DNA of 64,000 nucleotides from Chrysomallon squamiferum (taxonomy: Eukaryota > Mollusca > Gastropoda > Neomphalida > Peltospiridae). The stretch's first letter is position 1. The number at the start of each line of letters is the position of its first letter. Shown here in pieces: positions 16,995 through 64,000 of the stretch. Location of the stretch: assembly GCA_012295275.1 (NCBI GenBank), contig CM022671.1:33459183-33523182 (forward strand), in the 5' to 3' direction. A program made the translations under genes and the position numbers. The notes under the pieces are model-generated. The model made no database searches and was not told where the DNA came from. It was given only the letters and a program-made list of their open reading frames with translations.

Positions 16995-18054
16995 TTGAAC
17001 AGACTCAGTTAAGAAAATAAATATCAAGTGTTATCACATATTATTATAAGCAAACGTTGGTTTCCAGTAAGTTAGATAATACAAAGTATGCTTCTTTTAA
17101 GCAGTTTGATAATTATACTTTTCTCTCGGCCTTGATGGATTCCGCTGAATTCGTGTTCACCTACCAAGAAGCTGAAAAGAACAGTGAGAAGCATTTGCAG
17201 TGGCTACTTTAACGATTATGGATCGATGTGAGTAAGTGTGCTGGTCAGTCAGTAATTACTTTAAAGCAGAATCTGTCTTTAAAATTAGATTACAGAATCA
17301 AATGGGGATATAAATAGAAAATAAATGTGTTTGTACCAAAAATATGTGGATGTGATGCATGATGTACAGTGTACCCTGGATTTAACGGACAGCTACGGTG
17401 AACGTGTGTCGGTTAATACCGAAACATTTGATAAATTGCAAATGTTTGAAAATTATATTTTATTACTATGCAATTTTAATAAGTTTAATTCCATATTGTA
17501 GAAATTATTGATATATTATTTAGTAATATGATATTAAATTAAAACATTTTCAGTTCATAAAAATAAATTAAAACTTGACATTTTTAGATGTATGAAAAGA
17601 AAGCGAAGTGACGTTTTAGAAGGACTTATAGAAATTTATATTAGGAGAAAGTTAATAATTACGATCTCTAAATGTCATATAACAATATAGCAGAAGTATT
17701 ATGATAATATAATAGCTGCTACTGTGATAAAATAATAAAAATATAGTAATCTGTATGTATGTGTCAATTTTATGGTTTTTCTTTTATTCATTTTATATAA
17801 TAAAAATCAGATATATACTTGTATAAAATATGTTATTGGTAGGTAACTGTTTAAGAAATACATTCTAGAAGCAATAACAATTTAAGTAAAGGCAAAATTA
17901 CAATAGTATGCTGAAAATATTTATCACATCAGTATATTTAGTGATGTAATGCTAAATGAAAAAGGAAGGTCACTACAGGAAACCATAAAAACTGATATCA
18001 TGTTTTAATTATTAGTGAACCAGCTGAACAGGTAATGTATTTTAATAGTAAGGA

Positions 18055-18300
18055 GTTTATATCAACAGAGAACTTATTTCAATAGTTACCAAAATTGTAT
18101 CAACAGAACATATTTACAAAAAATAAGGGAATTATACCAAAAGAGCCATAATAATGAAATTATATCAACAGAATATATTTCAGCTGTGAGGAAATTCTAT
18201 CAAAAGACTTAATTAATTAGGGAATCATTTGAACAATATTGAGGGAATTATGTTAACAGTTGAACAATGGGCTATTTCTGTAGTAGAGAAATTATTTACA
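18055..18300. repeat. Degenerate minisatellite, about 30-36 bp period
   Basis: About six irregular copies of a unit built around TATCAACAGA followed by an ATATTTCA-like segment and GGAAAT. Similarity decays to the right. Counted by eye only. Confidence 0.4.
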
Positions 18301-18928
18301 GTAGCAGTAATCCTTTCAGTAGTTAATAAAATATTTGGATGGTTGGAAAAAATTTGTGACAGTGGAGGAAACAGCATGGATTCATTTATCACGGAAGTTA
18401 TTTCCATTCTCCAAAATGTGATAGTATTAGTACATGATAAAACAACAAAAACATTATAATATAAAATCATTATGATAATACAGCAGCTGCACTATGATAA
18501 TATATAATAGAAATAGAAAATACAGTAGTATTACCATAATGCAACAGCTGCACTACGATAAACCAAATCAAATATTATGATAGTACAACAGCCTCTTGTT
18601 ATGAAACATCGTATATATTATAATAATAATGCTATAATAATACAGTATGTACATAATGCTTAAGTTTTCTTGAACATCTATAAAAAGAAAGTAATAATTA
18701 AAATTTTAAAATTAAGACATTTAACATTTTCTTATAGATACATACATACTACATAAAATAAGAAACAAGTAAGAAAGGAAAATTCCACACTAAAATTAAG
18801 AAAGACATAACTCCTCTTTCAAAGCATTTATACAATTCATTGTTCATATTAAAACATGTGCAACTGTGAAACCTGTTGATCCAAATAATTTGCAAAAACA
18901 TGGACAAAGATAAAAATATAGTGCTGTG

Positions 18929-18933
<5 letters not shown>

Positions 18934-18985
<52 letters not shown>

Positions 18986-19012
18986 TATGTATGTATGTAT
19001 GTATGTATGTAT
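18934..19012. repeat. (CA)n then (TATG)n microsatellite
   Basis: About 24 CA units, then TATG/GTAT tetranucleotides. Confidence 0.95.
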
Positions 19013-21380: not shown

Positions 21381-24300
21381 TTACACAGAACTGTGCTTTC
21401 TGTACATCATAACTGGACCTGTGGGGACGTACATGTAAGACTTTCCAGTCAGGTATTCCTGCTCTCCTTGGGCTTTATGTCTTGTGTTACCACTGATATC
21501 ATAAATAAAAATGTCTTTGACATCAAAATTTTCCCCTTCATGAACAATCTGCATTCCATTCATATTAGTATCCAGCCTTTCTCTGTTATCTTCATTAAGG
21601 CTATCCTTGACATCAACATTGTACCCTCCATTCATATCAGCGTTCAGCCTTTCTCTGCTGTCACCCTTCAGCCTATCCTTGTCATCAACATTGTACCTTC
21701 CATTCAAATTACCATTCAGCCTTTCTCTGTTGTCATCATTAAACTTATCCTTGACATTGACCTTCTGTCTTCCATTCACATTAGCATTCAGCCTTTCTAT
21801 GTTTTGATTATAAACCGTATGTTTGACACGCGCCTTCCGCCTTCCATTTACAATACCATTCACAATAGCATTCAATCCTTCTCTGTCAACATCAAGCCTA
21901 TGATTCACATGAACTTTCTGCCTTCCATTGACATTAGAATTCAGTCGTTCTCTCTTTTCTTCATTAAGCCTATGCTTGATGTGACCATTCTGCCTTCGAC
22001 AGACATTAGCATTATGCCTTTTTCTTTTGTCATCATAACGGCTATCCTTGATATCACTATTCTGCCTTCCATTCATATTAACATTCAGCCTTTCTCTGTT
22101 GCCATCATTAAGGCTATCCTTGACATCAGTATTCTGCCTTCCATTCATATTAGTATTCAGCCTTTCTCTGTTGCCATCATTAAGCCTATCCTTGACACCA
22201 GTATTCTGCATTCCCTTCATATTAGCATTCAACCTTTCTCTGTTGTCATCATTAAGCCTATCCTTGATATCAGTATTCTGCCTTCCATTCATATTAGCAT
22301 TCAGCCTTTCTCTGTTGCCATCATTAAGCCTATTCTTGACATCAGTATTCTGCCTTCCATTCATATTAGCAGTGAGCCTTTCTCTGTTGTCACCATTAAG
22401 CCTATCCTTGACATCAGTATTCTGCCTTCCATTCATATTAGCATTCAGCCTTTCTCTGTTCTCTTCATTAAGCCTATCCTTGACATCAGTATTCTGCCTT
22501 CCATTCATATTAGCATTCAGCCTTTCTCTGTTCTCTTCATTAATCCTTTCCTTGACATCAGTATTCTGCCTTCCATTCATATTAGTATTCAGCCTTTCTC
22601 TGTTGCCATCATTAAGCCTATCGTTGAATTGACCATACTGCCTTCCATTCACATCAGCATTCAGCCTTTCTTTTTTCTCATCATTACGCCTATCCTTAAC
22701 ATCAGCATTCTGCCTTCCACTGAAATTAGCATTCAGCCTTTCTCTATAGTCATCATTAAGCCTCTCCTTGATATCACTATTCTGCCTTCCATTGACATTA
22801 GCATTCAGCCTTTCTGTATTGTCATCATTAAGCCTATCCTTGACCTCAGCATTCTGCATTCCATTCACATTACAATTCAGCCTTTCTCTATTGTAATCAT
22901 TAAGCCTATCGTTGATATCAGCATTCTGCCTTCCATTCACATTATCATTCAGCCTTTCTCTATTATCATCATTAAGCCTATCCTTGACATCAGTATTCTG
23001 CCTTCCATTCACATTATCATTCAGCCTTTCTCTGTTGTCATCATTAAGCCTATCGTTGAATTCACCATACTGCCTTCCATTCACTTTAGCATTCAGCCTA
23101 CCTTTTTTGTCATCATTACGCCTATCCTTAACATCAGCATGCTGCCTTCCACTGAAATTAGCATTCAGCCTTTCTGTATTGTCATCATTAAGCCTATCAC
23201 TGACATCAGTATTCTGCCTTCCATGGACATTAGTATTCAGCCTTTCTCTGTTGCCATCATTAAGCCTATCGTTGATATCAGCATTCTGCCTTCCATTCAC
23301 ATTAACATTCAGCCTTTCTCTATTGTCATCATTAAGCCTATCGTTGACATCATCATACTGCCTTCCATTCACATTAGCATTCAGCCTTTCTCTATTGTCA
23401 TCATTAAACCTATCGTTGACATCAGAATTCTGCCTTCCATTCATATTAGCATTCAGACTTTCTCTATCGTCATCATTAAGCCTATCGTTGACATCACCAT
23501 ACTGCCTTCCATTCACATTAGCATTCACCCTTTCTCTATTGTCATCATTAAGCCTATCCTTCACATCAGATTTCTGCCTTACACTGACATTAGCATTCAG
23601 CCTTTCTGTATTGTCATCATTAAGCCTATCGTGGACATCAGTATTCTGCATTCCATTGACAGTAGTATTCAGCGTTTCTCTGTTGCCATCATTAAGCCTA
23701 TCCTTATAATCAGTATTCTGCCTTCCATTGACAATAGTATTCAGCCTTTCTCTGTTGCCATCATTAAGCCTATCCTTGACATCAGCATTCTCGATTCCAT
23801 TCACATTAGCATTCAGCCTTTCTCTATTGTGACCATTAAGCCTATTCTTCACATCAGCATTCTGCCTTCCATTCATATTAGCATTCAGCCTTTCTTTGTT
23901 CTCATCATTAAGCCTATCCTTGACATCAGCATTCTGTCTTCCATTCACATTAGCATTCAGCTTTTCTCTTTTGTCATCATTAAGCCTATCGTTGACATCA
24001 GCATTCTGCCTTCCATTCGTATTAGCATTCAGCCTTTCTCTGTTGTCATCATCAAGCCTATACTTGACATGAACCTTTTGCCTTCCATTCACATTAGCAA
24101 TCAGCCTTTCTCTGTTGTCATCATCAAGCCTATCCTTGACATCAGCATTCTGCCTTCCATTCACATTAGCAATCAGCCTTTCTCTATTGTCATCATTAAG
24201 CATATCGTTGACATCAGCATTCTGCCTTCCATTCACATTAGCATTCGGCCTTTCTCCGTTGTCATCATCAAGCATATCGTTGACATGAACATTTTGCGTT

Positions 24301-25357
24301 CCATTCACAGTAGAATCCAGCCTTTCTCCGTTGTCCTCATTAAGCCTATACTTGACATGAACCTTTTGCCTTCCATTCACAGTAGAATCCAGCCTTTCTT
24401 TTTTGTCATCATTACGCCTATCCTTGACATCAGCATTCTGCCTTCCATTCACATTAGCAATCAGCCTTTCTCTATTGTCATCATTAAGCATATCGTTGAC
24501 ATCAGCATTCTGCCTTCCATTCATATTAGCACTTAGCCTTTCCGTCTTATCATCATTAACCCTATTCTTGATATGAACATTCTGCCTTCCATTTTGCAAC
24601 TGTTGACTTGGTGAAGTTGCTTCTGATACTCTGCTTCCTGAATTCTTAAATTCTATATTATCTGAAGATAGGAACTGTTTATTTACAGGTACAACCTGCT
24701 CTCTAATGTTCACTGCTGACTGGTAATTGCCTGATTTCTTCCTTTCTCTTAACAGTTCTTCAATGACCTGATCAAGGTCTGGACTGAAGAGGATACTGGG
24801 TGGTGCAAACCCATTTTCCTTGCTTAGACGAATGATGGCCTGTCGTTGTCCTTCAGTTATGTACAGCAGCAGCTGAGGAGGAAAATTCCATGTGGTCCGA
24901 CCACTGACGTCCTGATAGAAGAGCTTGTTTTTTGTAGCAGCCTCTTGACTTCTGTGAATTGTCCAGCCATCTGGCAGGGCAGAATCTATTAGAAGAATCC
25001 CACAATCACATCTTTCTGAATTCTTCAGATTCCTTTTAAGGGTCTCTAACTTAGGAGCATTTTCATCAAATGGGGTTGAGTAATAAACATTATCCATGTT
25101 GGGACAGTCTGGAAGTGGCAATGCTGGTCGACTGACTGGTACATTAACTTTCCTCTGACGGTCCTTTTCAATTATGTTTCTTCTGATGTCTGAAATTTTC
25201 TGAGTGGATGATGGGAGCCAGCTGGCTACTGCTTCTAGTTCAGTTAAGCTATCAAGTGACACGTGTTTTTCACTGGTCTGGCTGAATAATGGAATTCTGT
25301 TCTTCTCTCTGAAAGACGAAGTGCTGGAACATCTTACAGGAAATGCTGTTTTAGCTT
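21381..25357 (-). CDS. Gene 1, last coding exon: WW domain, repeat array and tail
   Basis: The acceptor is TTTTCCAG before AAGCTAAAAC. The first codon is split, with G from the preceding exon, and continues E-A-K-T. The 3977-bp exon stays open to TAA at 21381-21383. It carries the conserved MDNVYYST segment, the WW domain, a linker with GFAPPSILF, the array at 21561-24593 and the tail. Confidence 0.88.
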
Positions 25358-25969
25358 CTGGAAAATAAAACATTATTCACTGCTGTTTTATGAAATAGGT
25401 TAAACAATACCATAGATACAAAAGAGATATGTTAGTGTTGAAATATCTATCATTAGTGAAGGAAATATACATCAGTCAAATAATAATAACAACAACAACA
25501 GAATTAATATTAGAATTAATGATAGTAATAATAATTTAATACAAGAGTGCAGTAGAGTAAAGATACCAAATCGCTGTACCTGGACTCGTGGCTAAGAAGG
25601 ACGGATGTAGTGAGTTTGGTGATATCGCATGTGGTATCATGGCCTGAGGTATACCTTTTCCCATCTGTTCATCCGGTTGTATCGTCCTTTTACTCACACC
25701 GCCCAACCTTTCGTAGTCCGAGTAATTGTTAATTGGATACAGCAAGTGCACATTCTCTATCTTTTCCAAGTTACCTATTCTGTGGTGCTTGTAAAAGCTA
25801 CACAGTTTCATGAATGACATGAATTTCTTTCCAGGAACGATGTAATACAGGAAGTGTCCACCTTGTTTCTCCATAACCACATTTATGTGTCGTACGGAAC
25901 TATCACTTATACTGTAAGATACATAAATAAATAAACAAATTAATAGCCGATATCAACAACAGCAATAAC

Positions 25970-26022
<53 letters not shown>

Positions 26023-26024
26023 TA

Positions 26025-26067
<43 letters not shown>

Positions 26068-27525
26068 TAATTTATAACAGTAATAGTAATAAACAATGAT
26101 ATAAATTAAAAATCAATATCAAATAAGCTGTTATTGGTACACTGCCTTTTTAGAAAACAATATCAATATACTTGACAAAGATATCACTGACAATCATACT
26201 GTAAACAAGAACAGTTATAAAATGAAATTACAAAAAATAAAATAAAATACATTTGAAAACATTTTTCTTTAAACCTAAACGTTTTGAAACAAATTATTTC
26301 AAAACGTTTAGTTAATTATTATATTACTAACCATTTATCATCAAGAATTATTTTCTGATGTTCACAGTCATTACTTATAAACTCTAAATATATTGATATT
26401 CTCATATTTTACCTGACAGATAAAGACAAGTAGTTATCTCCCTTCGTACTCAGCCGCAACAGATAACATCCAGTACTTACAGGACTGTAATGTTTAATGA
26501 ACCTTGTCGCCTGTAGAATAAAAATACAAATAAATTAGATAATGAAATATTAAAAGTAATCAAAATTAATTAATAAATTATAGACACATAATATACATGT
26601 ACAAATGTAAAATCTTATAAAGAAACACACCAACCAGTTATCCTGATGTCATCATGAAGTGAAGCATATAGACACGTGTATTTTCACATATATAAATAAA
26701 CAAACAAACTCATGCCCATATACTTACCTATCTGCCTGCCTACTTACGTATCTATGTATCTAATCAGTGTAGGAAAGCACAACCTTGTATTTACAATTCT
26801 AATAATTTTGAGAAGAATGACATAAAATGTGTAACAGTGCTAGACTGCACAAGAGATGGCAGCTTTAATCATAAACGATAATACTGCAGATACAATATCT
26901 CTACATCTTAACATCTCTGTTGATATAAGTTTTTTTGCTTTAATTTAATAAGATGCAGTAGACTGTAAGATTGTGTCCTCACAAAAGACCCATCAGTCTA
27001 TTTTTTATTTTACCCAGTGATTCACAGTTGATGTACAAAATGTTGTACGGTAAGTGCTATTTTGTCTGCAGGATGGTGCATATCTAAAGGGTCTCTTGCT
27101 GTTAATCAGAAAGAGTAGTTCACAAAATGGCAGCAGTGGGTTTCCTCTATCACTATCTCAGTGGTCCTTAAGCCTAAACTTTAAACACATAGGTATGATA
27201 ATTATGTTGTTGGCATCATAAAATACAAATTACTTCATTTCTTTTTTCAAAATATTTAGTTATAACAACTGCATATAAATACACAATAAACAAAGTCAGC
27301 AAACTACATATAACTGTAAATATTGATATGACAATGAAATGTATATATATTTACATCCATATATACAAACCATACAACAATAAACATTGATAACTCAGTG
27401 ACAATATATGTATGACATATAACAGATCAGAAACTTACCTCTTCACTATTTGTAATGTCTGGAAAGAAGAAGGGTAAAGTTGCTATTTCTTTTGGTACAT
27501 AATTCGTATGATTAGCTTCAGCCAT
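21381..27525 (-). CDS. Gene 1: SH2-WW protein with about 42 copies of a 24-aa repeat
   Basis: Predicted CDS is four coding exons: 27525-27439, 26510-26413, 25911-25580 and 25357-21381. Lengths 87+98+332+3977 give 1498 codons (1497 aa) with no stop, and all junctions are GT-AG. The start ATG (G at -3 and +4) is chosen because the frame entering its exon would otherwise follow a stop in the likely leader exon. Residues 19-122 form a divergent SH2 domain: YLLR with R48 for FLVR, the SV strand, VRH (H71 in the betaD4 position) and FMSFMKLCSFY. Residues 241-256 are proline-rich. The WW domain is about 300-332, with LPDGW, an FYQD aromatic pair and TTWNFP. The 24-aa charged repeats and a tail ending SYMYVPTGPVMMYRK follow. 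No signal peptide or membrane segment, so probably a cytoplasmic phosphotyrosine adaptor; that role is inference. Confidence 0.82.
21561..24593 (-). repeat. Exonic 72-bp tandem repeat array of gene 1, about 42 copies
   Basis: 3033 bp of in-frame 72-bp repeats. Each encodes 24 residues: an NGRQ turn, a variable -DVKDRL- part, NDDNRER, then LNANV or LNANM. Copies differ at roughly 1-8 positions, mostly at the residues after NGRQN and in the NDDN segment. One copy is a codon short and is followed by a four-residue insertion. The composition is strongly polar (N, D, R, K), with one Leu or Val about every seven residues. Confidence 0.97.
25580..25911 (-). CDS. Gene 1, SH2 C-terminal exon
   Basis: Acceptor CTTACAG at 25912-25918, donor CCAG/GTACAG after 25580; 332 bp entering in phase 2 and leaving in phase 1. 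It encodes the C-terminal half of the SH2 domain (ISDSSVRHINVV, a GHFLYYIVPG strand pair, the FMKLCSFY helix, LLYPI) and a linker with YSDYERLGG. It is six codons longer than in units 2 and 3, near GKGIPQA. Confidence 0.85.
25961..26068. repeat. (AAT)n microsatellite in intron of gene 1
   Basis: About 100 bp of AAT/TAA units with a few substitutions. The same intron carries an AAT or ACT array at the corresponding place in every other unit (37756, 47636 and 58481). Confidence 0.92.
26413..26510 (-). CDS. Gene 1, SH2 N-terminal exon with the FLVR-type arginine
   Basis: 98 bp between TTCTACAG and a GTAAAA donor. It encodes ATRFIKHYSP then GCYLLRLSTKGDNYLSLSV. The YLLR motif stands where SH2 domains have FLVR, and its arginine is the expected phosphotyrosine ligand. 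Confidence 0.85.
26958..27245 (+). mobile_element. SINE in the first coding intron of gene 1 (antisense to the gene)
   Basis: Plus-strand copy of a dispersed SINE: CCCATCAGTCTATTT linker, CCAGTGATTCAC, GGATGGTGCATATCTAAAGG, CTTGCTGTTAATCAGAAAGA, GGGTTTCCTCTATCA, CAGTGGTCCTTAAGCC and a tail near ACAAATTACTTCATTTC. The tRNA-like head is degraded. The same copy sits in the matching intron of units 2-4. Confidence 0.65.
27439..27525 (-). CDS. Gene 1, first coding exon
   Basis: The exon itself probably runs 27439-27564: acceptor AGCTCAG, donor GAGGTAAGT, 126 bp, phase 0. Translation is taken from the ATG at 27525, giving MAEANHTNYV and FFFPDITNSEE, the start of the SH2 fold. The 13 codons upstream of the ATG are open but probably leader. 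Confidence 0.75.
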
Positions 27526-33461: not shown

Positions 33462-36400
33462 TCAGAACTGTCTTTTTCTGTACATCACAACTGGACCTGT
33501 GGGGAAGTACAAGTAAGACTTTCCAGTCAGGTAATGCTGCTCTCCTTTGGCTTTCTGTCTTGTGTTACCATTGATATCATAAACCGACATATCCCTGACA
33601 TCAAGATATTGCCTTTGATTAATATGGAGAATCTGCCTTCCATTCATATTAGAATTCAGTATGTCTCTGCCGTCATCATTAAGCCTATCCTTCACATCAG
33701 CATTCTTCCTTCCATTCATATTAGCATTCAGCCTGTCTCTGTTTTCATCATTAAGCCTATCCTTGACATCAGCATTCTGCCTTCCATTCATATTACCATA
33801 CAGCCTTTCTCTGTTTTCATCATTAAGTCTATCCTTGACATCAACATTCTGCCTTCCATTCACATTAGCATTCAGCCTGTCTCTGTTTTCATCATTAAGT
33901 CTATCCTTCACATCAACATCCTGTCTTCCATTCACATTAGCATTCAGCCTTTCTCTGTTGTCATCATAAAGCCTATCCTTGTCATCAGCATTCTGACTTC
34001 CATTGACATTAGCAGTGACCATTTCTCTGTTGTCATCATTAAGCCTATCTTTGACATCAGCATTCTGCCTTCCATTGGCATTATCATTCAGCTTTTCTCT
34101 GTTGTCATCATTAAGCCTATCCTTGACATCAACATTCTGGCGTCCATTCACATTAGCATTCTGCCTTTCTCTGTTCTGATCATTAAGACTATGCTTGACA
34201 TCAGCATTCTTCCTTCCATTCACATTAGCATTCGGCCTTTCTCTGTTGTTATCATTAAGCCAATGCTTGACATGAGCATTCTGCCTTCCACTCACATTGC
34301 CATTAACCTTTCCTCTGTTGTCATCATAAAGCCTATCCTTGTCATCAGCATTCTGACTTCCATTGACATTAGCAGTGACCATTTCTCTGTTGTCATCATT
34401 AAGCCTATCTTTGACATCAGCATTCTCATTGGCATTATCATTCAGCTTTTCTCTGTTGTCATCATTAAGCCTATCCTTGACATCAACATTCTGCCGTCCA
34501 TTCACATTAGCATTCTGCCTTTCTCTGTTCTGATCATTAAGACTATGCTTGACATCAGCATTCTTCCTTCCATTCACATTAGCATTCGGCCTTTCTCTGT
34601 TGTTATCATTAAGCCAATGCTTGACATGAGCATTCTGCCTTCCACTCACATTGCCATTAACCTTTCCTCTGTTGTCATCATTAAGCCTATCCTTGTCGTC
34701 AGCATTCTGACTTCCATTGACATTAGCATTCAGCCTTTCTCTGCCGTTATCATTAAGCCTATATTTGATATCAGCATTCTTCCTTCCATTGACATAAGCA
34801 TTCAGCCTTTCTCTGTTGTCATCATTAAGCCTATCCTTCAGATAACCATTCTGCCTTCCATTCACATTAGCATTCACCCTTTCTCTGCTGCCATCATTAA
34901 GCCTATCCTTGTCATCAGCATTCTGACTTCCATTGACATTAGCAGTGAGCATTTCTCTGCTGCCATCATTAAGCCTATCGTTGACATCAGCATTCTGCCT
35001 TCCATTCATATTAGCACTCAGCCTTTCTCTTTTGTCATCATTAAGCCTATCTTTGACATCAGCATTCTGCCTTCCATTCATATTAGCACTCAGCCTTTCT
35101 CTTTTGTCATCATTAAGCCTATCCTTGACATCAACATTCTGCCGTCCATTCACATTAGCATTCAGCCTTTCTCTGTTGTCATCATTAAGCCTATCCTTGA
35201 CATCAACATTCTGCCGTCCATTCACATTATCATTCAGCTTTTCTCTGTTGTCATCATTAAGCCTATCCTTGACATCAACATTCTGCCGTCCATTCACATT
35301 AGCATTCAGCCTTTCTCTGTTCTGATCATTAAGACTATGCTTGACATCAGCATTCCTCCTTCCATTCACATTAGCATTCGGCCTTTCTCTGTTGTTATCA
35401 TTAAGCCAATGCTTGACATGAGCATTCTGCCTTCCATTCACATTCCCATTAACCTTTTCTCTGTTGTCATCATTAAGCCTATCTTTGACATCAGTATTCT
35501 GCCTTCCATTCAAATTAGCACTCAGCCTTTCTCTTTTGTCATCATTAAGCCTATCTTTGACAACAGCATTCTGCCATCCATTGGCAATAACATTTAGCCT
35601 TTCTCTGTTGTCCTCATTAAGCCTATCCTTGAGATCAGCATTCTGCCTTCCTTTCATATTAACATTCAGCCTTTTTCTGCTGTCATCGTTAACCCTATCC
35701 TTGCCATGAGCATTCTGATTTCCATTGAAATTTGCAGTGAACATTTCTCTGTTATCATCATTACACCTATCTTTGACATCAGCATTCTGCCTTCCATTGA
35801 CATAAACATTCAGCCTTTCTGTATTGTCATCATTAAACCTATCTTTGATATCAGCATTATGCCATCCATTGGCAATAACATTAAGCCTTTCATCATTAAG
35901 CCTATCCTTGAGATGAGCATTCTGCCTTCCATTGACATTAGTATTCAGCATTTCTTTTTTGTCATCGTTAAGTCTATCCTTGACATCAGCACTCTGCCTA
36001 TCTTTGACATCAGCATTCAACTTTCCATTGACATTAGGGTTCAGCCTTTCTCTGTTGTCATCATTACGCCGATCCTTGACATCAACATTCTGCCGTCCAT
36101 TGACATTAGCACTCAGCCTTTCTCTGTTATTATCGTTAAACCGATTCCTGACATCAGCATTCTTTCTTCTATTCATATTAGTACTCAGCCTTTCTTTTTT
36201 ATCATCATTAAGCCTATCCTTGACATTAATATCCTGCCTTCTATATTGCAGCTGTTGACTTGGTGAAGTTGCTTCTGATACTGTGCTTCCTGAATTTTCA
36301 AACTCGCTATTATCTGAAGATAGGAACTGTTTATTTACAGGTACAACCTGCTGTCCAATATCCAATGCAGACTGGTAATTATCCAATTTCTTCCTTTTTG

Positions 36401-37752: not shown

Positions 37753-37815
<63 letters not shown>

Positions 37816-45462: not shown

Positions 45463-46110
45463 CATATTAGAATTCAGTATGTCTCTGCCGTCATCATTAA
45501 GCCTATCCTTCACATCAGCATTCTTCCTTCCATTCATATTAGCATTCAGCCTGTCTCTGTTTTCATCATTAAGTCTATCCTTGACATCAACATTCTGCCT
45601 TCCATTCACATTACCATACAGCCTTTCTCTCTTATCATCATTAAACCTATCTTTGATATCAGCATTATGCTATCCATTGGCAATAACATTCAGCCTTTGT
45701 CTTATGTCATAATTAAGCCTATCCTTGAGATCAGCTTTCTGCCTTCCATTGATATTAGTATTCAGCCTTTCTCTGTTGTCGTCGTTAAGGCTATCGTTGA
45801 CATGAGCATTCTGATTTCCATTGTCATTAGCATTCAGCCTTTGTCTTATGTCATCATTAAGCCTATCCTTCAGATCAGCATTCAACTTTCCATTGACATT
45901 AGCATTCAGCGTTTCTCTGTTGTCATCATTACGCGTATCCTTGACATCAACATTCTGCCGTCCATTGACATTAGCACTCAACCTTTCTCTCTTATTATTA
46001 TTAAGCCAATTCATGACATAAGCATTCTTCCATCTATTCATATTAGTACTCAGCCTTTCTCTTTTATCATCATTAAGCCTATCCTTAACATTAATATCCT
46101 GCCTTCTATA
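45463..46110 (-). repeat. Exonic 72-bp repeat array of copy 3, exactly 9 copies
   Basis: 648 bp, the shortest array in the window. Copies include variants not seen elsewhere (NDDIRQRL, NYDIRQRL). Confidence 0.95.
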
Positions 46111-47269: not shown

Positions 47270-47583
47270 CTGGACTCATTGCTAAGAAGGACGGCTGTCG
47301 TGAGTTTGCTGATGTCGCAGGTAGTATCATGACCATCTGTTCATCGGGCTGCATCGTTCTTTTACTCACACCGCCCAACCTTTCGTAGTCCGAGTAGTTG
47401 TTAATTGGATAGAGCAAGCGCACATTCTCTATGTTTTGAAAGTTACGTATACTGTGCTGCTTGTAAAATGTACACAGTTTCATGAATGACATGAATTTGA
47501 TTCCAGGAACGATAAAATACTGGATATGTACACCTTGTTTCTCTATAACAACATTTATATGTCGTACAGAACTTTCACCGATA
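47270..47583 (-). pseudogene. Copy 3, SH2 C-terminal exon (open)
   Basis: 314 bp, splice sites intact. Changes from gene 2 include HIQYFIV, CTFYKQH and NFQNIENV. Confidence 0.75.
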
Positions 47584-47637
47584 CTGTAGAATAGATAAAT
47601 AAATAAACAAATCAATAACTGATATCAATAACAGTAA

Positions 47638-47675
<38 letters not shown>

Positions 47676-48063
47676 ATAATAATAATAATAATAATTCATA
47701 ACAGTAACACTAATAAACGATGAGATAAATTAAAAAGTTAATACATTTTAAAATTAAGAAGCAATATCAAATAAGCTGTTATTGGTACACTGCCTTTTTA
47801 GAAAACAATATCAGTATACTTGACAAAGATATCACTGACAATCATACAGTAAACAAGAACAGTTATAAAATGAAATCATAAAAAAAATAAAATAAAATCA
47901 ATCTGAAAACATTTTTTCTTTAAACCTAAATGTTTTGAAACAAATTATTTCAAAACGTTTAGGTATTTATTATATTACTAACCATTTATCATCAAGAATT
48001 ATTTTCTGATATTCACACTCATTATTTTTACACCATAAATATACTGATATTCTCATATTTTAC

Positions 48064-48161
48064 CTGACAGATAAAGTTAAGTAGTTATCTCCCTTCGTAC
48101 TCAGTCGCAACAGATAACATCCAGTACTTACAGGACGGTAATGTTTAATGTACCTTGTCGC
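48064..48161 (-). pseudogene. Copy 3, SH2 N-terminal exon (open)
   Basis: 98 bp, YLLRLSTKGDNYLTLSV. The key arginine is retained. Confidence 0.75.
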
Positions 48162-48609
48162 CTGTAGAATAAAAATACAAATAAATTAGATAATGAAATA
48201 TTAAAAGTAATCAAAATTAGTTAATAAATGATAGACACATAATATACATGTACAAATATAAAATCTTATAAAGAAACAAACCAACCAATTATCCTGATCT
48301 CATCATGAAGTGAAGCATATAGACACGAACATCTTCACATATATAAATAAACAAACAAACTCATGCCCATATACTTACCTATCTACCTGCCTACTTACGT
48401 ATCTATGTATCTAATCAGTGCACGAAAGCATAACCTTATATTTACAATTCTAATAATTTTGAGAAGAATGACATAAAATGTGTAACAGTACTAGACTGCA
48501 CAAGAGGTGGCAGCATTAATCATAAACGATAATACTGCAGATACAATATATCTACATCTTTACATCTCTATTGAGATAAGTTATTTTGCTTTAATTTAAT
48601 AAGATGCAG

Positions 48610-48900
48610 TAGATTTTAAGATCGTGTCCTCACAAAAGACCCATCAGTCTATTATTTATTTTACCCAGTGATTCACAGTTGATGTACAAAAATCTATATG
48701 GTAAGTGCTATGTTGTCTGCAGGATGGTGCATGTCTAAAGGGTCTCTTGCTGTTAATCAGAAAGAGTAGCTCACAAAATGGCAGCAGTGGGATTCCTCTA
48801 TCATTATCTGAGTGGTCCTTAAGCCTAAACTTTAAAAACATAGGTATGATAATTATGTTGATGGCATCATAAAATACAAATTACTTCATTTCTTTATTCA
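48610..48900 (+). mobile_element. SINE in the first coding intron of copy 3
   Basis: Same insertion as in units 1, 2 and 4. It keeps a longer head (GATCGTGTCCTCACAAAAGA) like unit 1. Its minus-strand reading gives a spurious 61-codon frame. Confidence 0.65.
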
Positions 48901-49085
48901 AAATGTTTAGTTATAACATCTGCGTATAAATACACAATCAAGAAAGTCAAAAATCTATATATAACTGTAAATATTAATATGACAATGAAATATGTATATA
49001 CATCCATATATACAAACCATACAACAATAAACATTGATAACTCAGTGACAATATATGTATGACATATAACATATCAGAAACTTAC

Positions 49086-49172
49086 CTCTTGACTATTTGT
49101 AATGTCTGGAAAGAAGAAGGGTAAAGTTGCAATTTCCTCTGGTACATAATTCGTATGATTAGCTTCAGCCAT
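49086..49172 (-). pseudogene. Copy 3, first coding exon (open)
   Basis: Probable exon 49086-49211. Encodes MAEANHTNYVPEE and DITNSQE, with an intact donor. Confidence 0.7.
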
Positions 49173-49211
49173 CACTGGTGTGAGGATTCTGTTAAACGTT
49201 TTTGTGTACTT

Positions 49212-49665
49212 CTGAGCTAAATAACAACACAGTATTATCATTTGATAGTATATGAGTGTTTGTATAATATCTATTTTAAGGAATGTTTTTAAATAAAAAG
49301 TTGGCACACAATCAAATTACCATTCACAAAGCAATTATGTTTGAATAATAATTGTGCCTTCAGTTGGAAGAATAGTACGAAGAAAAAAAAATCAATAAAA
49401 AATAGTGAAGTAACAAGGAAACTGAAAATGTCAATAGATACTAAATAAATTAAAAATAAAAATATTCTTGTCTAGAAGCTGAGTATTTAGTTCCAGTGAG
49501 TCATACTGACCTAAATAGTATTGATTTTATAAATCAAAACAGTCAAAACCAGATTACACACATTGTAAGTGTTTAATTTATAAATATATTATTAGAGCAT
49601 AAACTGCTAGTGTTCCTATAATAAATATTATTATTAGTGATGAAATAAGAACTGTAATTAATAAT

Positions 49666-49707
<42 letters not shown>

Positions 49708-50327
49708 AATAATAAAATAAGAATAAGAATAAATAATAATAATCATAATAAATAATAATAATAATAATACAAATTAAAATCTTCAAATTCTGTTGACGAT
49801 GGTTCAAAACCTATATAAAATATCCTGAATTAAATAACAATCATTTGATACACAACTACTTTATAGTTTTCTTTCTAAGCAGCAAAAATATTGCAACTAA
49901 TAACAACGTAGGTATTAACTTCATAATGAAATCTTTAACTATATTCCAATATGTAATGTTACCCATAACAAACCAAAATACATTATTAGAGCAAAATCTA
50001 AGGGAATAAAGTGAAACAGTTAATTGATTTTCATATTTTCAATTAAGAAAATTATCTCAAAAGTTTACATAATCTTGCACACAATTTAAGACTAACTTTA
50101 GGTTTCTAAGAATTATGTATTTAATATTAGGAATTATTACTCCAGACTAAGATTCCAAGTAACAATAACATTCACTAGTCTCTAGAAGACAGACTAAAGA
50201 TTGCTTATTAATCATTACAAGTCTTAAAAACGACTATTGCAAAATTATTTATTTTAGTGAAATTATTTGTATTGATTTGATATATAAACAGAACGTTCTA
50301 GTGTTTTGTCTTCATGAAATAAAAAAT

Positions 50328-54902: not shown

Positions 54903-57688
54903 TCAGAACTGTCTTTTTCTGTACATCACAACTGGACCTGTGGGGAAGTACAAGTAAGACTTTCCAGTCAGGTACTGATGCTCTCCTTTGGCTTTCTGTC
55001 TTGAGTTAGCATTAATATCATAAACCGACATATCCCTGACATCAAGATATTGCCTTTGATTAATATGGAGAATCTGCCTTCCATTCATATTAGAATTCAG
55101 TATGTCTCTGCCGTCATCATTAAGCCTATCCTTCACATCAGCATTCTTCCTTCCATTCACATTAGCATTCAGCCTGTCTCTGTTTTCATCATTAAGTCTA
55201 TCCTTCATATCAGCAGTCTGCCTTCCATTCACATTAGCATTCAGCCTGTCTCTGTTTTCATCATTAAGCCTACCCTTCATATCAGCAGTCTGCCTTCCAT
55301 TCACATTAGCATTCAGCCTTTCTCTGTTGTCATCATAAAGCCTATCCTTGTCATCAGCATTCTGCCTTCCATTGACATTATCATTCAGCTTTTCTCTGTT
55401 GTCATCATTAAGCCTATCCTTGAAATCAACATTCTGCCGTCCATTCACATTAGCATTCAGCCTTTCTCTGTTGTCATCATAAAGCCTATCCTTGACATCA
55501 GTATTCTGACTTCCATTGACATTAGCAGTGACAATTTCTCTGTTGTCATCATTAAGCCTATCCTTGACATCAGCATTCTGCCTTCCATTGACATTATCAT
55601 TCAGCTTTTTTCTGTTGTCATCATTAAGCCTATCCTTGAAATCAACATTCTGCCGTCCATTCACATTAGCATTCAGCCTTTCTCTGTTGTTATCATTAAG
55701 CCAGTGCTTGACATGAGCATTCTGCCTTCCATTCACATAGCCATTAACCTTTCCTCTGTTGTCATCATTAAGCCTATCCTTGTCATCAGCATTCTGACTT
55801 CCACTGACATTAGCAGTGACCATTTCTCTGTTGTCATCATTAAGCCTATCTTTGACATCAGCATTCTGCCTTCCATTCACATTAGCATTCAGCCTTTCTC
55901 TGTTGTTATCATTAAGCCAGTGCTTGACATGAGCATTCTGCCTTCCATTCACATAGCCATTAACCTTTCCTCTGTTGTCATCATTAAGCCTATCCTTGTC
56001 ATCAGCATTCTGACTTCCATTGACATTAGCAGTGACCATTTCTCTGTTGTCATCATTAAGCCTATCCTTGAGATAAGCATTCTGCCTTCCATTCACATTA
56101 GCATTCACCCTTTTTCTGCTGCCATCATTAAGCCTATCCTTGTCATCAGCATTCTGACTTCCATTGACATTATCATTCAGCTTTTCTCTGTTGTCATTAT
56201 TAAGCCTATCCTTGACATCAACATTCTGCCGTCCATTCACATTAGCATTCAGCCTTTCTCTGTTCTGATCATTAAGCCAGTGCTTGACATGAGCATTCTG
56301 CCTTCCATTCACATTGCCATTAACCTGTTCTCTGTTGTCATCATTACGCCTATCTTTGACAACAGCATTCTGCCATCCATTGGCAATAACATTTAGCCTT
56401 TCTCTGTTGTCCTCATTAAGCCTATCCTTGAGATCAGCATTCTGCCTTCCTTTCATATTAACATTCAGCCTTTTTCTGCTGTCATCGTTAAGCCTATCCT
56501 TGCCATCAGCATTCTGATTTCCATTGAAATTTGCAGTGAACATTTTTCTGTTATCATCATTACACCTATCTTTGACATCAGCATTCTGCCTTCCATTGAC
56601 ATAAACATTCAGCCTTTCTGTATTGTCATCATTAAACCTATCTTTGATATCAGCATTATGCCATCCATTGGCAATAACATTAAGCCTTTCATCATTAAGC
56701 CTATCCTTGAGATGAGCATTCTGCTTATCTTTGACATCAGCATTCAACTTTCCATTGACATTAGGGTTCAGCCTTTCTCTGTTGTCATCATTACGCCGAT
56801 CCTTGACATCAACATTCTGCCGTCCATTGACATTAGCACTCAGCCTTTCTCTGTTATTATCGTTAAACCGATTCCTGACATCAGCATTCTTTCTTCTATT
56901 CATATTAGTACTCAGCCTTTCTTTTTTATCATCATTAAGCCTATCCTTGACATTAATATCCTGCCTTCTATATTGCAGCTGTTGACTTGGTGAAGTTGCT
57001 TCTGATACTGTGCTTCCTGAATTTTCAAACTCGCTATTATCTGAAGATAGGAACTGTTTATTTACAGGTACAACCTGCTGTCCAATATCCAATGCAGACT
57101 GGTAATTATCCAATTTCTTCCTTTTTGTCAAAAGTTTTTCGAGGATCATGTCACATTCTGGACGGAAGAGAATACTGGGTGGTGCAAACCCATTTTCCTT
57201 GCTTAGACGAATGATGGTCTGTCGTTGTCCTTCAGTTATGTACAGCAGCAGCTGAGGAGGAAAATTCCATGTGGTCCGACCATCGATGTCCTGATAGAAG
57301 AGCTTGTTTTTTGTAGCAGCCTCTTGACTTCTGTGAATTGTCCAGCCATCTGGCAGGGCAGCATCTGTGAGAAGAATCCCACATTCACATCTTTCTAAAT
57401 CCTTCAGTTTCCTTCTAAGGATCTCTAACTTAGGAGCATTTTCATCAAGTGGGGTTGAGTAATAAACATTATCCATGTTGGCACAGTCTGGAGGAGGCAA
57501 TGGTGGTCGACTGTTTGGTAAACTAGCTTTCGTCTGACGGTACTTTTCAGTGATGTTTGTTCTTATGTCTGGATCTTTCTGACTGGATGATCGCAGCCCA
57601 ATGGCTACTGCTTTTACTTTAGTTACCCTATCAAGTGACATGCGTTTTTCACTCCTGTGGTTTCTTACAGGATGTGCTCTTTTACCTT
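54903..57688 (-). CDS. Copy 4, last coding exon (open)
   Basis: 2786 bp open to TGA, acceptor GTTTTCCAG as in gene 2. The first part is nearly identical to gene 2; the tail and 3' end are nearly identical to copy 3. That such a long exon lacks any other lesion argues the gene is recent or still constrained. Confidence 0.75.
55086..56972 (-). repeat. Exonic 72-bp repeat array of copy 4, about 26 copies
   Basis: 1887 bp. The distal repeats carry variants not found in genes 1 and 2 (NGRQTADMKD, NVDFKDRL). NGRQNAHVKHWL and GSQNADDKD pairs recur as a smaller higher-order pattern. One in-frame deletion fuses two repeats near KDKQNAHLKD. Confidence 0.95.
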
Positions 57689-58111
57689 CTGGAAAACAAA
57701 AAAGTGTTTAATCCTCTTTATGAAATAGGTCAAAGAATACAACAGATATAAAAGAGATATGTTAGTGTTGAAATATATATCATTACTCAAGGAAATAATA
57801 TTTATAGGTATTTTCTACATTTAAAGAGAGTTAAAAAAATGCAATTAATCTGAGATAATTTAGTCTGAACATTAACATTTACTATATAATATAATTATAA
57901 TAATAATTTAATGCAACGATAACAACAAAAGAGTAAATGATGAAAAAAAAAAAAACTATATCAATAATAACATAAAACAACAACAACAAAAAAACATGAT
58001 GAACAGCAACCATAATAACAATAATAACAACAGAATTAATATTAGAATTAGTGATAGTAATCGTGATCTAATACAAGAGTGCTGTATAGTAAAGATACCA
58101 AATCGCTGTAC

Positions 58112-58426
58112 CTGGACTCATTGCTAAGAAGGACGGCTGTCGTGAGTTTGCTGATGTCGCAGGTAGTATCATGACCATCTGTTCATCGGGCTGCATCGTT
58201 CTTTTACTCACACCGCCCAACCTTTCGTAGTCCGAGTAGTTGTTAATTGGATAGAGCAAGCGCACATTCTCTATCTTTTGCAAGTTACGTATACTGTGTT
58301 GCTTGTAAAAAGCTACACAGTTTCATGAATGACATGAATTTGATTCCAGGAACGATATAATACTGGAAATGTACACCTTGTTTCTCTATAACCACATTTA
58401 TATGTCGTACAGAACTTTCACTAATA
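58112..58426 (-). pseudogene. Copy 4, SH2 C-terminal exon with +1 frameshift
   Basis: 315 bp, splice sites intact. The extra base is in the A5 run at 58307-58311. Confidence 0.8.
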
Positions 58427-58478
58427 CTGTAGAATAGATAAATAAATAAACAAATCAATAACTGATATCAACAACAGC

Positions 58479-58529
<51 letters not shown>

Positions 58530-58894
58530 TTATAACAGTAATAGTAATAAACTATGAGATAAATTAAAAAGTTAATAAATTTTAAACTTAAGAAGCAATG
58601 TCAAATAAGCTGGTATTGGTACACTGCCTTTTTATAAACAATATCAGTATACTTGACAAAGACATCATTGACAATCATCCAGTAAAAAGAACAGTTATAA
58701 AATGAAATCAGAAAAAAATAAAAATAAAATACATTTGAGAACAATTTTCTTTAAACTTAAATGTTCTGAAACAAATTATTTCAAAACATTTAGATAATTA
58801 TTATATAACTAACCATTTATCATCAAGAATTATTTTCTGATATTCACACTCATTTCTTATAAACTCTAAATATATTGATATTCTCATATTTTAC

Positions 58895-58992
58895 CTGACA
58901 GATAAAGACAAGTAGTTATCTCCCTTCGTACTCAGCCGCAACAGATACCATCCAGTACTTACAGGACCGTAATGTTTAATGTACCTTGTCGC
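58895..58992 (-). CDS. Copy 4, SH2 N-terminal exon
   Basis: 98 bp, identical in coding to gene 2 by eye (GWYLLRLS). Confidence 0.75.
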
Positions 58993-59439
58993 CTGTAGAA
59001 TAAAAATACAAATAAATTAGGTAATGAAATATTAAAAGCAATCAAAATTAGTTAATAAATGATAGACACAAAATATACGTGTACAAATATAAAATCATAC
59101 AAAGAAACCAACCAACCAATTATCCTGATCTCCTCATGAAGTGAAGCATATAGACATGTGTATTTTCACATATATAAATAAACAAACAAACTCATGCCCA
59201 TACACTTACTTATCTCCTGCCTACTTATCTATCTATGTATCTAATCAGTGTATGAAAGCATAACCTTGTGTTTACAATTCTAATCAGTTTGAGGAGAATG
59301 ACATAAAATGTGTAACAGTGCTAGACTGCACAAGAGATGGCAGCTTTAATCATAAATGATAATGCAGATATAATATCTCTACATCTGAACATCTCTATTG
59401 ACATAAGTTTTTTTGCTTTAATTTAATAAGATGCAGTAG

Positions 59440-59700
59440 ACTGCAAGACCCATCAGCCTATCTTTTATTTTACCCAGTGATTCACAGTTGATGTACAAAA
59501 ATCTATATGGTAAGTGCTATGTTATCTGCAGGATGGAGCATGTCTAAAGGGTCTCTTGCTGTTAATCAGAAAGAGTAGCTCACAAAATGGCAGCAGTGGG
59601 TTTCCTCTATCATTATCTCAGTGATGCCTAAACTTTAAAACCATAGGTATGATAATTATGTTGATGGCATAATAAAATACAAATTACTTCATTTCTTTAT
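59440..59700 (+). mobile_element. SINE in the first coding intron of copy 4
   Basis: Same insertion, sharing the head deletion of unit 2. Confidence 0.65.
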
Positions 59701-59888
59701 TCAAAATGTTTAGTTATAACACCTGGCTATAAATACACAATCAAGAAAGTCAACAAACTATATATAACTGTTAATATTGATATGACAATGAAATATGTAT
59801 ATACATCAATATATACAAACCATACAACAATAAGCATTGATGTCTCAGTGACAATATATGTATGACATATAACAGATCAGAAACTTAC

Positions 59889-59975
59889 CTCTTGACTATT
59901 TGTAATGTCTGGAAAGAAGAAGGGTAAAGTTGCAATTTCCTCTGGTACATAATTCGTATGACTAGCTTCAGCCAT
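59889..59975 (-). CDS. Copy 4, first coding exon
   Basis: Probable exon 59889-60014. Encodes MAEASHTNYVPEE and DITNSQE as in gene 2. Confidence 0.7.
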
Positions 59976-60014
59976 CACTGGTGTGAGGATTCTGTTAAAC
60001 GTTTTTGTGTACTT

Positions 60015-61395
60015 CTGAGCTAAATAACAACACAATATTATTATTTGACAGTATATGAGTGTTTGCATAATATCTATTTTAAGGAATGTTTTTAAATAAA
60101 AAGCTGGCACACAATCAAATTACCATTCACAAAGCAATTATGTTTGAATAATAATTGTGCCTTCAGTTGGAAGAATAGTACGAAGAAAAAAAATCCAAAA
60201 AAAAGTAGTGAAGTAACAAGGAAACTGAAAATGTCAATAGATACTAAATAAATTAAAAATAAAAATATTCTTGTCTAGAAGTTGAGTATTTAGTTACAGT
60301 GAGTCATACTGACCTAAATAGTATCGATTTTATAAATCAAAACAGTCAAAACCACATTACACACACTGTAAGTGTTTAATTTATAAATATATTATTAGAG
60401 CATAAACTGCTAGTGTTCCTATAATAAATATTACTAGTAGTGATGAAATAAGAACTGTAATTAATAATAATATTAATAATAATAATAATAATAACAACAA
60501 CAACAACAACAATAACAATAATAAGAATAAAATAAGAATAAGAATATATAATAATAATAATAATTAAATATTAAAATCTTCAAATTCTGTTGACGATGGT
60601 TCAAAACCTATATAAAATATCCTGAATTAAATAACAATCATTTGATACACAACTACTTTATAGCTTTCTTTCTAAGCAGCAAAAATATTGCAACTAATAA
60701 CAACGTAGGTATTAATTTCATAATGAAATATTCAACTCTATTCCTTCATATTAATATTTAGCAAAATTTCAGATGTATAATACAATTAGGTCTACTCTGA
60801 TTCAGACTGGGTGATAAGTAAATGTAGAGCTTTGGCCAATTTTCGTTCTACTGATACACCAAGTTTATTTCATTTGAAATGCAGTGGTTAAAGATGCATA
60901 CGATCATCTACTTTTGATAAAATGTCATTACAGAGGAGTGTTATCGGAAAAAAAAAAAAAAAAAAAAAAAAATGGAATTTCCAATTTGTTACCCATAACA
61001 AACCAAAATACATTATTAGAGCAAAATCTAAGGGAATAAAGTGAAACAGTTAATTGATTTTCAGTTAAGAAAATTATCTCAAAAGTTTACATAATCTTGC
61101 ACACAAGTTAGGACTAACTTTAGGTTTCTAAGAATTATGTATTTAATATTAGGAATTATTACTCCAGACTAAGATTCCAAGTATCAATAACATTCACTAG
61201 TCTCTAGAAGACAGACTAAAAATTGTTTATTAATCATTACAAGTCTTAAAAACGACTATTGCAAAATTATTTATTTTATTGAAATTATTTGTATTGATTT
61301 GATATATAAACAGAACCTTCTAGTGTTTCGTCTTCATGAAATAAAAAATGTAATAACAATAATAATAACAATAATAATAATAATAATAATAATAA

Positions 61396-61426
<31 letters not shown>

Positions 61427-63869
61427 AAGAAGAAGAAGAAGAAAAGGATAAAAAATAATAACAGAAATATTAAAGTGAATTTTCTAGCCAATAAATATAA
61501 AATAATTAAAATCAAAATCTAAATACAGATCTGTCGCGAACATAAATTCCTGTAATTGAAATAAATATATACATAAATATATTAAGTACCTTAATGAAAG
61601 TCCTTTATAAAAACTAATTACAATGAAAACATAAAATGTAATACTTTTACAGGTACAATCTATGACTAAGTGTTCTGTATATCAAACGGTCTCTTTATCT
61701 AAAAGTAGTTTAGACAGGCCTATATCACTTGTCATTCATATTATTGCTGAAACTGATTGTATGATGATTAAAGTCAAATAGACTGAGTAACTATGTTGAT
61801 ATTTAAGGCTGAACTTAAAAGTTTAGCCTTTGCTAGAAGCATTAATAATACACGTTAATTCTAACATGTACTAATAGTAATACTCACTCATGTTCATTAA
61901 CTGACAAAGTTTTTATGGGAACTTTTCACGTCTATTTTGATATTTTTTCCATTTCTTTTACCCTTAACCAGGAAATTATTGAGCGTCTTCCTGAACAGAA
62001 AACGAAACTAAAAAAGAGGGGAAGGCTGACTCGTTGTTAATAGTAACGGATCCGAAAGTCGTTACTGATTTAAGGTTATACAAAAATGCAGTAAGCTACA
62101 AACTTGGTATTACTGCTGCCGCCACAATCAGAACATCACTGTCATATTAAGACTATAGCTGCTGCAATTAGTAGTCCTATAATTATTATACTAGTACTAC
62201 TACTAATACTACCACTACTGGTACTATTATTGCTAAAATGGTTGCTGCAGCTACCACCACAAGCATACCAGTATAAATTATTTATATGTACCATAACATT
62301 GACAACTTCTAATACTTCTACTGTTACACTACTACTACCACCGTAGCTTCTAGCTATTTTTACGACTACTTCTATCCTACAATTTATTTAAGCATCATAC
62401 TGTTATTGACCCTCTATTTTCTTTCTCTGTCCTCGTCTTCGTACTATTATTAGCTGCTTTATGAATTTGATTGTACTTTCGTGTCTCCGTAAAGATATGC
62501 GTGTTTAATATCCCATACATGCTGAATATAAGAATATTTACATAATGAAGACATGTTTATCATCGTAAGAAATATGATCATCACCTAGTATATGCTTCTC
62601 TTAAAATAAATATATAGATGAATGACTGAATGAACGAATGAATAAATAAATATGCCGTTAAACATTTCTTCATTCATAATACTACAAGCATTAGTATAAC
62701 TCCAATAAATACAACTATTGCTGCTTCTGATACTATTACTGCTGTTATTATTGTTAATATTAATATTTTTTATTCCTTATTTCGTTCTCGTCTCAAAACC
62801 AAAATTATATAGGGGAAACTGGGGACCTTTGAGCCATTTTTAAAATATTTGACCATTGCACCGAAACATTGGTATCTGTTGATAGAAACGAATAGAGGCA
62901 TTATTGCTTTCGATTACAATGTAGAGTTTGATAGGCTGTCTTCATCAACGTCGTTATGGGAGACCTGTATGTAACAGGGTTAGCGATGGCTCATTGCGCA
63001 CCAGAGAAAGTGACCAATGAGCCACCCTTTCAGGTCATATTGGCCATGATCTTAAACAGTGAAAGAAGCTATAAACAAGACATATAAATCGGGTTTCTTT
63101 TCTTTTTTCTTATTATTATTTTTCTTTCTTTTTTTTATAAATATTCCTGTCAGAAATTTCATTTTAAGTGCACATAATGCAACAAACTAAAGGGCGAATA
63201 ACATTTTTAACATTCACCTCAGTCTTGGGCATTTTGTGCTAATGATTCAGTCTCCATGTTTTCAACGTAGTTTCAAGAGTCCTAGGAAACAGTAAATGGT
63301 TTTCAAGATTGAATCCGTCAAAACTGACACTGAGTTGTATGATTCCCTTGTGATTTTTTGGTATTTTGCACAACAGGTTTAGTAAGGATATACAAAATTA
63401 AATCAGCCTCAACTGAGCTTATTTCTTCCTGGAGAGGCTCAATAAATGCAAATGATATAGCGTGGGAGATTTTCTGAGAAAATGGTATGTACATTTTATG
63501 GATAAATAAGTAAATTTTGTATACTTCCTAATTTTTTATTTTATGTATTCAAACTAATCTTTTCCAGTGAGTATCTATTATGAGACAAGGAGAATAGGAG
63601 AATAGTTGCATTTTGCCAAATGTCAAGTGATCTTTCATGTCATTGGTGTGCCTTGGTCTGTTTCTCTTCTGTTAATGTACTACTACTACTACTACTACTA
63701 GTAATAATAATAATAATAATAATTCTATTACAGATACTATTACTACTAATTCTCCTCTAAGTATTATTACACATATTATTATAATGTGTTAAGATAAAAG
63801 AAAGATAGTATATTTTCAGATTCTATCAGTGTTTTCATATGTTATTATTATTGGTTTCCAGTAATCTGT
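60015..63869 (-). other. 5' flank of copy 4
   Basis: Non-coding and near-identical to the unit 2 flank. It has AAT/AAC arrays (60465-60566), a poly-A run at 60948-60972 not matched in unit 2, (AAT)n-(GAA)n at 61365-61445, the leader-exon donor at 61888, the GGGGAAACTGGGGACC segment near 62813 and the inverted repeat at 62987-63024. Confidence 0.5.
62987..63024. repeat. 10-bp inverted repeat, unit 4
   Basis: Same arms and loop as in units 1 and 2. Confidence 0.6.
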
Positions 63870-64000
63870 CCTTAAAATTAGATTACAGAATCAAATCGGA
63901 ATATAAATAGACTATAAATGTGTTTGTACCGAAAATATAATATAGTGGTTTTATGATAAAACAACAAAAATATAGTAGGATTATGAAAGTACAGCAACCT
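63870..64000 (-). repeat. Start of tandem unit 5, cut by the window edge
   Basis: The last 131 bases match the start of unit 3 (43121 onward) apparently without difference. They are slightly different from unit 4, so the array continues to the right. Confidence 0.8.

Follow-up and report, generated by a model that had tools for sequence, protein, structure and literature searches.

Tandem SH2 and WW-like genes with a 24-residue repeat array of variable length in the snail Chrysomallon squamiferum

Results

The stretch of DNA analysed here, 64,000 nucleotides of the genome of Chrysomallon squamiferum, a deep-sea vent snail (CM022671.1, 33,459,183-33,523,182 of the forward strand; hereafter the window, in whose positions all coordinates below and those of an earlier note on this DNA are given), carries on its minus strand four copies of one four-exon gene, and the cluster continues beyond it to a total of seven copies, with copies 5, 6 and 7 lying outside. 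The predicted proteins have, in this order, an SH2 domain, a proline-rich linker, a WW-like module, an array of 24-residue repeats, and a tyrosine-containing tail. We consider it probable that they are phosphotyrosine adaptors whose array serves as a disordered spacer, variable in length, that separates the WW-like module from the tail.

The earlier note described four minus-strand copies with the same exon order and splice phases, and this was borne out: all seven copies have GT/AG junctions and intron phases 0, 2, 1, the phase of the third junction in copy 4 deviating solely through an extra base in exon 3. Exon 1 provides the ATG, exons 1-3 encode the SH2 domain, and exon 4 encodes most of the linker, the WW-like module, the repeats and the tail. 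The exon 2/3 junction reads SVSI, the same as in the alignment rows of the Haliotis relatives described below, which indirectly backs the splice model. In the assembly, four copies are intact: 1, 2, 6 and 7, with 1497, 1332, 613 and 498 residues. The shared layout of the four copies in the window stands, but only copies 1 and 2 of them are intact, and the family extends past the window. When exon 3, from the SH2 part, and the core of exon 4 were each searched against the genome (404,604,130 bases in 22 contigs), either query gave eight matches, all on contig C7 at 33.48-33.55 Mb. The eight matches represent seven genes, because a broken exon yields two matches, and neither search revealed a further gene of the cluster type elsewhere in this genome. 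We see no reason for the start of the family at position 17277, as proposed previously; the flanks of the copies start to match one another at about 19103.

Copy 1 (21381..27525, minus strand, 1497 residues; GT/AG, phases 0/2/1) consists of exons 27525-27439, starting with the ATG, 26510-26413, 25911-25580, and 25357-21381, ending with the stop codon. Its SH2 domain, at residues 14-123, is split across exons 1-3, as had been claimed, and the check with PF00017 confirmed the domain in all four intact copies, with 31.9, 29.9, 28.1 and 35.0 bits in copies 1, 2, 6 and 7, respectively, against a cut-off of 21; all seven relatives also score above the cut-off. The phosphate-binding arginine of SH2 domains sits in the FLVR motif. 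Here, this motif reads YLLR or YLVR, and the arginine, R48, is invariant in all six alignment rows. A six-frame scan of the genome for SH2 domains gave 52 matches, none of them inside the cluster, as expected because introns split the domain. Among paralogs, the ratio of nonsynonymous to synonymous substitution rates (dN/dS) of the SH2 part was 0.26-0.54 for five pairs, with one further pair at 1.32.

The WW-like module of copy 1 with its flanking helices lies at 24735..25097 (minus strand; WW core at about 24876-24980) and contains the conserved YYSTP and CDCG. The earlier note called it a WW domain; the profile did not bear this out, and the predicted structure resembles WW domains. PF00397 scored 12.7, 12.7 and 11.3 bits in short segments of copies 1, 4 and 3, with 31 of 31 profile positions covered, against a cut-off of 26.9; it was not listed at E ≤ 1 in any of the four core proteins of the intact copies, and was listed in one of the seven relatives, with 13 bits. 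The AlphaFold2 model of the copy 1 module has a predicted local distance difference test score (pLDDT) of 80.9, and its part from about residue 40 to 77 can be superposed with WW domains, WW-containing structures making up 17 of the 32 rows of the superposition list. Two tryptophans and a closing proline are the hallmarks of WW domains. They are present here as LPDGW ... GRTTWNFP, the second tryptophan and the proline being invariant in all 10 alignment rows, and the first tryptophan in 9, with tyrosine in its place in Gigantopelta. The module is best called WW-like, as a predicted fold that misses the Pfam cut-off and superposes, in a confident model, on WW domains. An assignment to the methyl-CpG-binding domain (MBD) instead gets no backing from the sequence, whereas the fold comparison leaves it possible. 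Foldseek with both models returned nothing at E ≤ 0.001, and a profile search of the PDB with the WW-like alignment gave a best E of 0.028, to a protein judged unrelated.

Two short motifs accompany the module. YYxxP, right before the WW-like module (24735-25097), is invariant, including in the relatives (P0001-P0007), and CxCG is invariant across the copy 1 module and the same relatives. We take YYxxP to be a candidate tyrosine phosphorylation and SH2-binding site. Between copies 1 and 7, the WW-like module has no synonymous difference across 121 codons, although their SH2 parts differ (dS 0.24); gene conversion of the module is therefore proposed as the probable cause. The C-terminal tail of copy 1 (21384..21536, minus strand) has the core LTGKSYMYVPTGP..MYRK, and tblastn found a match to it in 7/7 copies.

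The array of copy 1 (21548..24593, minus strand) is built of a 72-base-pair unit encoding 24 residues, with the consensus NGRQNADVKDRLNDDNRERLNANV, an asparagine content of 22-24% and an almost balanced charge. The 24-residue array reported previously is there, but in place of up to 42 copies we counted 41 full units, where Tandem Repeats Finder gives 42.2 copies. The other arrays have 36 (copy 2), 26 (copy 4) and 5 (copy 6) full units, 9.1 units each by Tandem Repeats Finder in copies 3 and 5, and about one, by eye, in copy 7. All of them, at 41, 36, 26, 9, 9, 5 and about 1 units, sit between the same flanking elements. A charge-hydropathy rule puts the array of copy 1, and none of that protein's other parts, on its disordered side.

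In copies 1, 2, 4 and 6, the array is one open frame throughout. Nevertheless, its units show no amino-acid constraint. The substitutions at the three codon positions are fairly even in copies 1, 2 and 4 (107/80/98, 95/86/90 and 74/65/66) and few in copy 6 (13/3/7), the ratio of nonsynonymous to synonymous differences between units (pN/pS) is 0.74-1.33 in the four arrays, similar to the 0.68-1.34 of the wrong frames of copies 1 and 2, and amino-acid changes between the units show no deficit against neutral simulation (0.997, 0.108 and 0.162 of simulations as low in copies 1, 2 and 4). On the other hand, no stop codons were observed where 7.5, 6.4 and 5.5 would be expected under random placement in copies 1, 2 and 4, and as few stops occurred in 0, 0 and 7 of 2000 simulations, values that are too small as P values because the units are related by descent; the test was uninformative for copy 6 (0 against 0.6 expected). 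Hydropathy was also below that in the neutral simulation (fraction as low 0.048, 0.004 and 0.004 in copies 1, 2 and 4), while most other composition measures were inside the simulated range. Taken together, the lack of stops, the low hydropathy and the unconstrained units indicate that the frame and the hydrophilicity of the array seem to be kept, and its sequence is not.

Three other candidate features of the repeats were rejected. MgtE_N (PF03448) passed its cut-off of 25.9 bits in copy 1 (34.8), fell short of it in copies 2 and 4 (17.9 and 20.6), and is regarded as a composition match. The plus-strand open reading frames over the arrays, of up to 1056 residues (e.g., 21366-24536, plus strand), look like a by-product: antisense-frame stops, at 1, 1 and 1 against 3.6, 3.3 and 2.6 expected (P 0.10, 0.15 and 0.26), show no clear deficit, so these frames are compatible with unit composition alone. 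A genome search for the repeat unit gave 65 matches, 49 of them in the cluster; the other 16 were weak (E 6.6e-10 or worse, 23-38% identity) and included single matches on C2, C13, C14 and C10 (at 3.56 Mb). Of these 16, the best one lies on contig C10 (L029 4469-6368); it is a different, 24-base-pair satellite of the TTGTGTATCTATGTTGAATCTTTG type, the translation of which is weakly repeat-like, and was judged unrelated. By these searches, with the best of the 16 weak off-cluster matches inspected, the 24-residue repeat is found in this cluster only.

The remaining copies in the window, all on the minus strand, reveal how the arrays may have changed. Copy 2 (33462..39262, intact, 1332 residues; GT/AG, phases 0, 2, 1; PF00017 29.9 bits) has exons 39262-39176, 38278-38181, 37700-37387 and 36961-33462, and its array of 36 units (33632..36241) contains an internal duplication of several units, units 23-25 and 28-30 being identical at at least 71 of 72 bases. 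Copy 3 (45289..49172; exons 49172-49086, 48161-48064, 47583-47270, and exon 4 from 46852) is broken: its exon 4 shifts frame near the start, and it also carries an in-frame TAA and a stop codon within the repeats. It shares lesions with copy 5, and its array has about 9 units (45450-46106). Copy 4 (54915..59975; exons 59975-59889, 58992-58895, 58426-58112, and exon 4 from 57688) has a single lesion, a one-base frameshift in exon 3, and its exon 4 is open (a 934-residue open reading frame), with an array of 26 units at 55073..56968. A block that starts inside the array of copy 2 and ends upstream of copy 3 (34352..50063) occurs a second time, there starting inside the array of copy 4 (at 55073) and ending upstream of copy 5, and the two occurrences are identical at 13,070 of 13,108 aligned bases (two segments, arrays left out). 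The arrays of copies 3 and 5 differ at 1 of 657 positions, and exons 1-3 with their introns are 99.7-100% identical between copies 2 and 4.

Copy 4 resembles copy 2 upstream of the array and copy 3 in the tail and the 3' flank, the switch falling inside the array or right next to it. In the tail, copy 4 agrees with copy 3 at 162 of 162 bases and with copy 2 at 157 of 162; over the next 900 base pairs, the figures are 889 of 892 for copy 3 and 863 of 891 for copy 2. Within the array, units 1-3 and 5-8 of copy 4 keep the copy 2 order, at 70-72 of 72 bases, units 9-25 have copy 2 counterparts that agree at 66-72 of 72 bases but stand in another order, and the last unit is identical across copies 2, 3, 4 and 5. 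This switch of partner, together with the 26 units of copy 4 as compared with 36 in copy 2, would most simply be read as unequal recombination through the arrays, with or before a reshuffling of units; misassembly through the arrays is a possible alternative source of the pattern.

The search for relatives with the non-repeat part, as suggested previously, did find homologues, though named only as uncharacterized: seven matches among 7995 candidates scored, comprising a Gigantopelta aegis protein and the Haliotis proteins P0002-P0007, with two different proteins each in Haliotis asinina and H. cracherodii. The nearest is uncharacterized LOC121369458 of Gigantopelta aegis (48% identity over 88% of the query), a species that, like C. 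squamiferum, belongs to Peltospiridae. Like the cluster proteins, the relatives have an N-terminal SH2 domain, a proline-rich linker, YYxxP, CxCG and a WW-like module, at 33-53% identity, the values of 51-53% covering just 26-27% of the query. Unlike them, they are 363-509 residues long and have neither the repeat array nor the LTGKSYMY tail. A separate search for long relatives with residues 1-500 of the 1331-residue open reading frame gave none at E ≤ 0.001 among 7996 scored. A tree that includes the relatives groups the four intact copies together (support 98/99) and places copy 7, with about one unit, as the first branch among them (81/82); the branch of the Gigantopelta protein is long, making tree placement uncertain. 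Since all seven relatives are without the array, it most likely grew within this lineage.

Apart from the cluster, the window contains at 3576-5279 (plus strand) a single-exon frame of 567 residues for a rhodopsin-family G protein-coupled receptor (PF00001, 126.3 bits) with a serine/threonine-rich N-terminus.

Discussion

The earlier note proposed an adaptor family in which the repeats act either as a variable-length spacer or as a multivalent surface. The first of these is supported by the SH2 domain, the WW-like module, the series of about 1-41 units between the same flanks, and the unconstrained units. In the explanation that we favour, the gene products would be cytoplasmic adaptor proteins. 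Their SH2 domain, recognised by sequence with its conserved arginine, would dock on a phosphotyrosine partner, and the YYxxP motif, the proline-rich stretch, the WW-like module and the tail may recruit more partners. The disordered array would set the reach or spacing from the WW-like module to the tail; its length would shift via unequal recombination among and within arrays, and selection would maintain an open frame and a hydrophilic chain of no particular sequence.

Several observations speak against this explanation. Three of the seven copies are broken as assembled, and the gene models are derived from the genome sequence alone. The core evolves fast (dN/dS 0.59-0.87 in six paralog pairs), so its function may be weak or changing, and the dN/dS of the WW-like module is 1.04-1.32 in five pairs and undefined in one (copies 1/7, dS 0). 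The LTGKSYMY element is absent from the Gigantopelta protein, so the conservation of the tail is established within the cluster alone. As for the array, its putative disorder is predicted from composition alone, and the stop test is weakened by the shared descent of the units as well as by one wrong sense frame that is also stop-poor (46 stops against 67.4 simulated in copy 2, 0 of 2000 simulations as low; 35 against 47.6 in copy 4, 1 of 2000), though copy 1 has no wrong frame with a stop deficit.

The main rival to the spacer is a coding minisatellite, in which an adaptor of the repeat-free type carries the array as a neutral passenger that lengthens and shortens through recombination and persists since it is in frame and soluble. 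A pN/pS of about 1 and fairly even substitutions over the codon positions of copies 1, 2 and 4 agree with it, as do the intact copies with about one and five units and the resemblance of the arrays to recombination sites. The arrays are, however, stop-free beyond expectation and of lower hydropathy than in the neutral simulation, even if selection on a working tail beyond the array would alone yield both features. We regard this alternative as possible but doubtful.

A stronger form of the spacer explanation would make the array a genetically adjustable molecular ruler, with recombination giving new lengths and selection acting on how long and how soluble a disordered spacer is, irrespective of its sequence; we put this forward as a tentative and rather unlikely extension.

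It is very unlikely that the array is a multivalent surface, with every unit binding one same partner and copy number tuning avidity. The many units with a recognisable consensus, including four positions more than 90% conserved in copy 1, would suit such a role, but a binding motif should be constrained, and amino-acid changes among the units are no fewer than neutral; this part of the earlier proposal found no support, because the unit sequence drifts. Least probable of all is a decaying or misassembled cluster, in which pseudogenes or assembly duplicates make up most of the copies and the family is disappearing: the broken copies, the extent to which copies 4 and 5 repeat 2 and 3, arrays that could mislead an assembler, and an assembly from nanopore and Illumina reads at a heterozygosity of 1.38% (PMC7142155) are outweighed by four of seven copies intact across 498-1497 codons with GT/AG junctions, by the stop-free arrays of copies 1, 2, 4 and 6, and by the copy 3-like flank after copy 4, which plain end-to-end joining of haplotypes does not give.

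If the array is a spacer, the cluster offers a natural series in which a single spacer of a single adaptor family ranges from about 1 to 41 units within one genome. Because another peltospirid snail has a relative without the repeats, the effect of spacer length alone on adaptor behaviour becomes testable. It would also add a mollusc branch to SH2-WW adaptors, which the accessible portions of the literature report from deuterostomes.

By sequence, the nearest solved SH2 domains are those of VAV2, ZAP-70, SYK, SHP2 and GADS (best E 0.00081, with a query approximate at two junctions); the similarity is weak, and these proteins differ in their accompanying domains. As regards architecture, the earlier note knew of no described family of this kind. 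In the open-licence literature, we found no mollusc SH2-WW family and no SH2-WW protein with a long repeat array, and an expansion of myosin III-like genes in choanoflagellates includes WW and SH2 in the domain repertoire of its members (PMC3942036). The adaptor SLP-76 of amphioxus (642 residues) resembles the cluster proteins in having WW and SH2 domains and low-complexity regions argued to alter space in the complex, but its order, SAM-WW-proline-rich-SH2, is reversed and includes a SAM domain (PMC5431462). Also described is a 317-residue sea star egg protein (XP_038061760) that joins SH2 and WW as the only recognised domains, with an adaptor role suggested by its authors and a lancelet protein of like architecture; the available part of that paper mentions no long repeat (PMC11593052). 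This protein was not among the seven matches of our relatives search. So far as these partial sources go, the statement that there is no described family thus holds for the long array, which was found in this lineage only, and not for the combination of SH2 with WW, which was described in sea star and amphioxus. The joining of SH2 and WW is already known; the long array in such a protein seems, by these searches, to be the new part.

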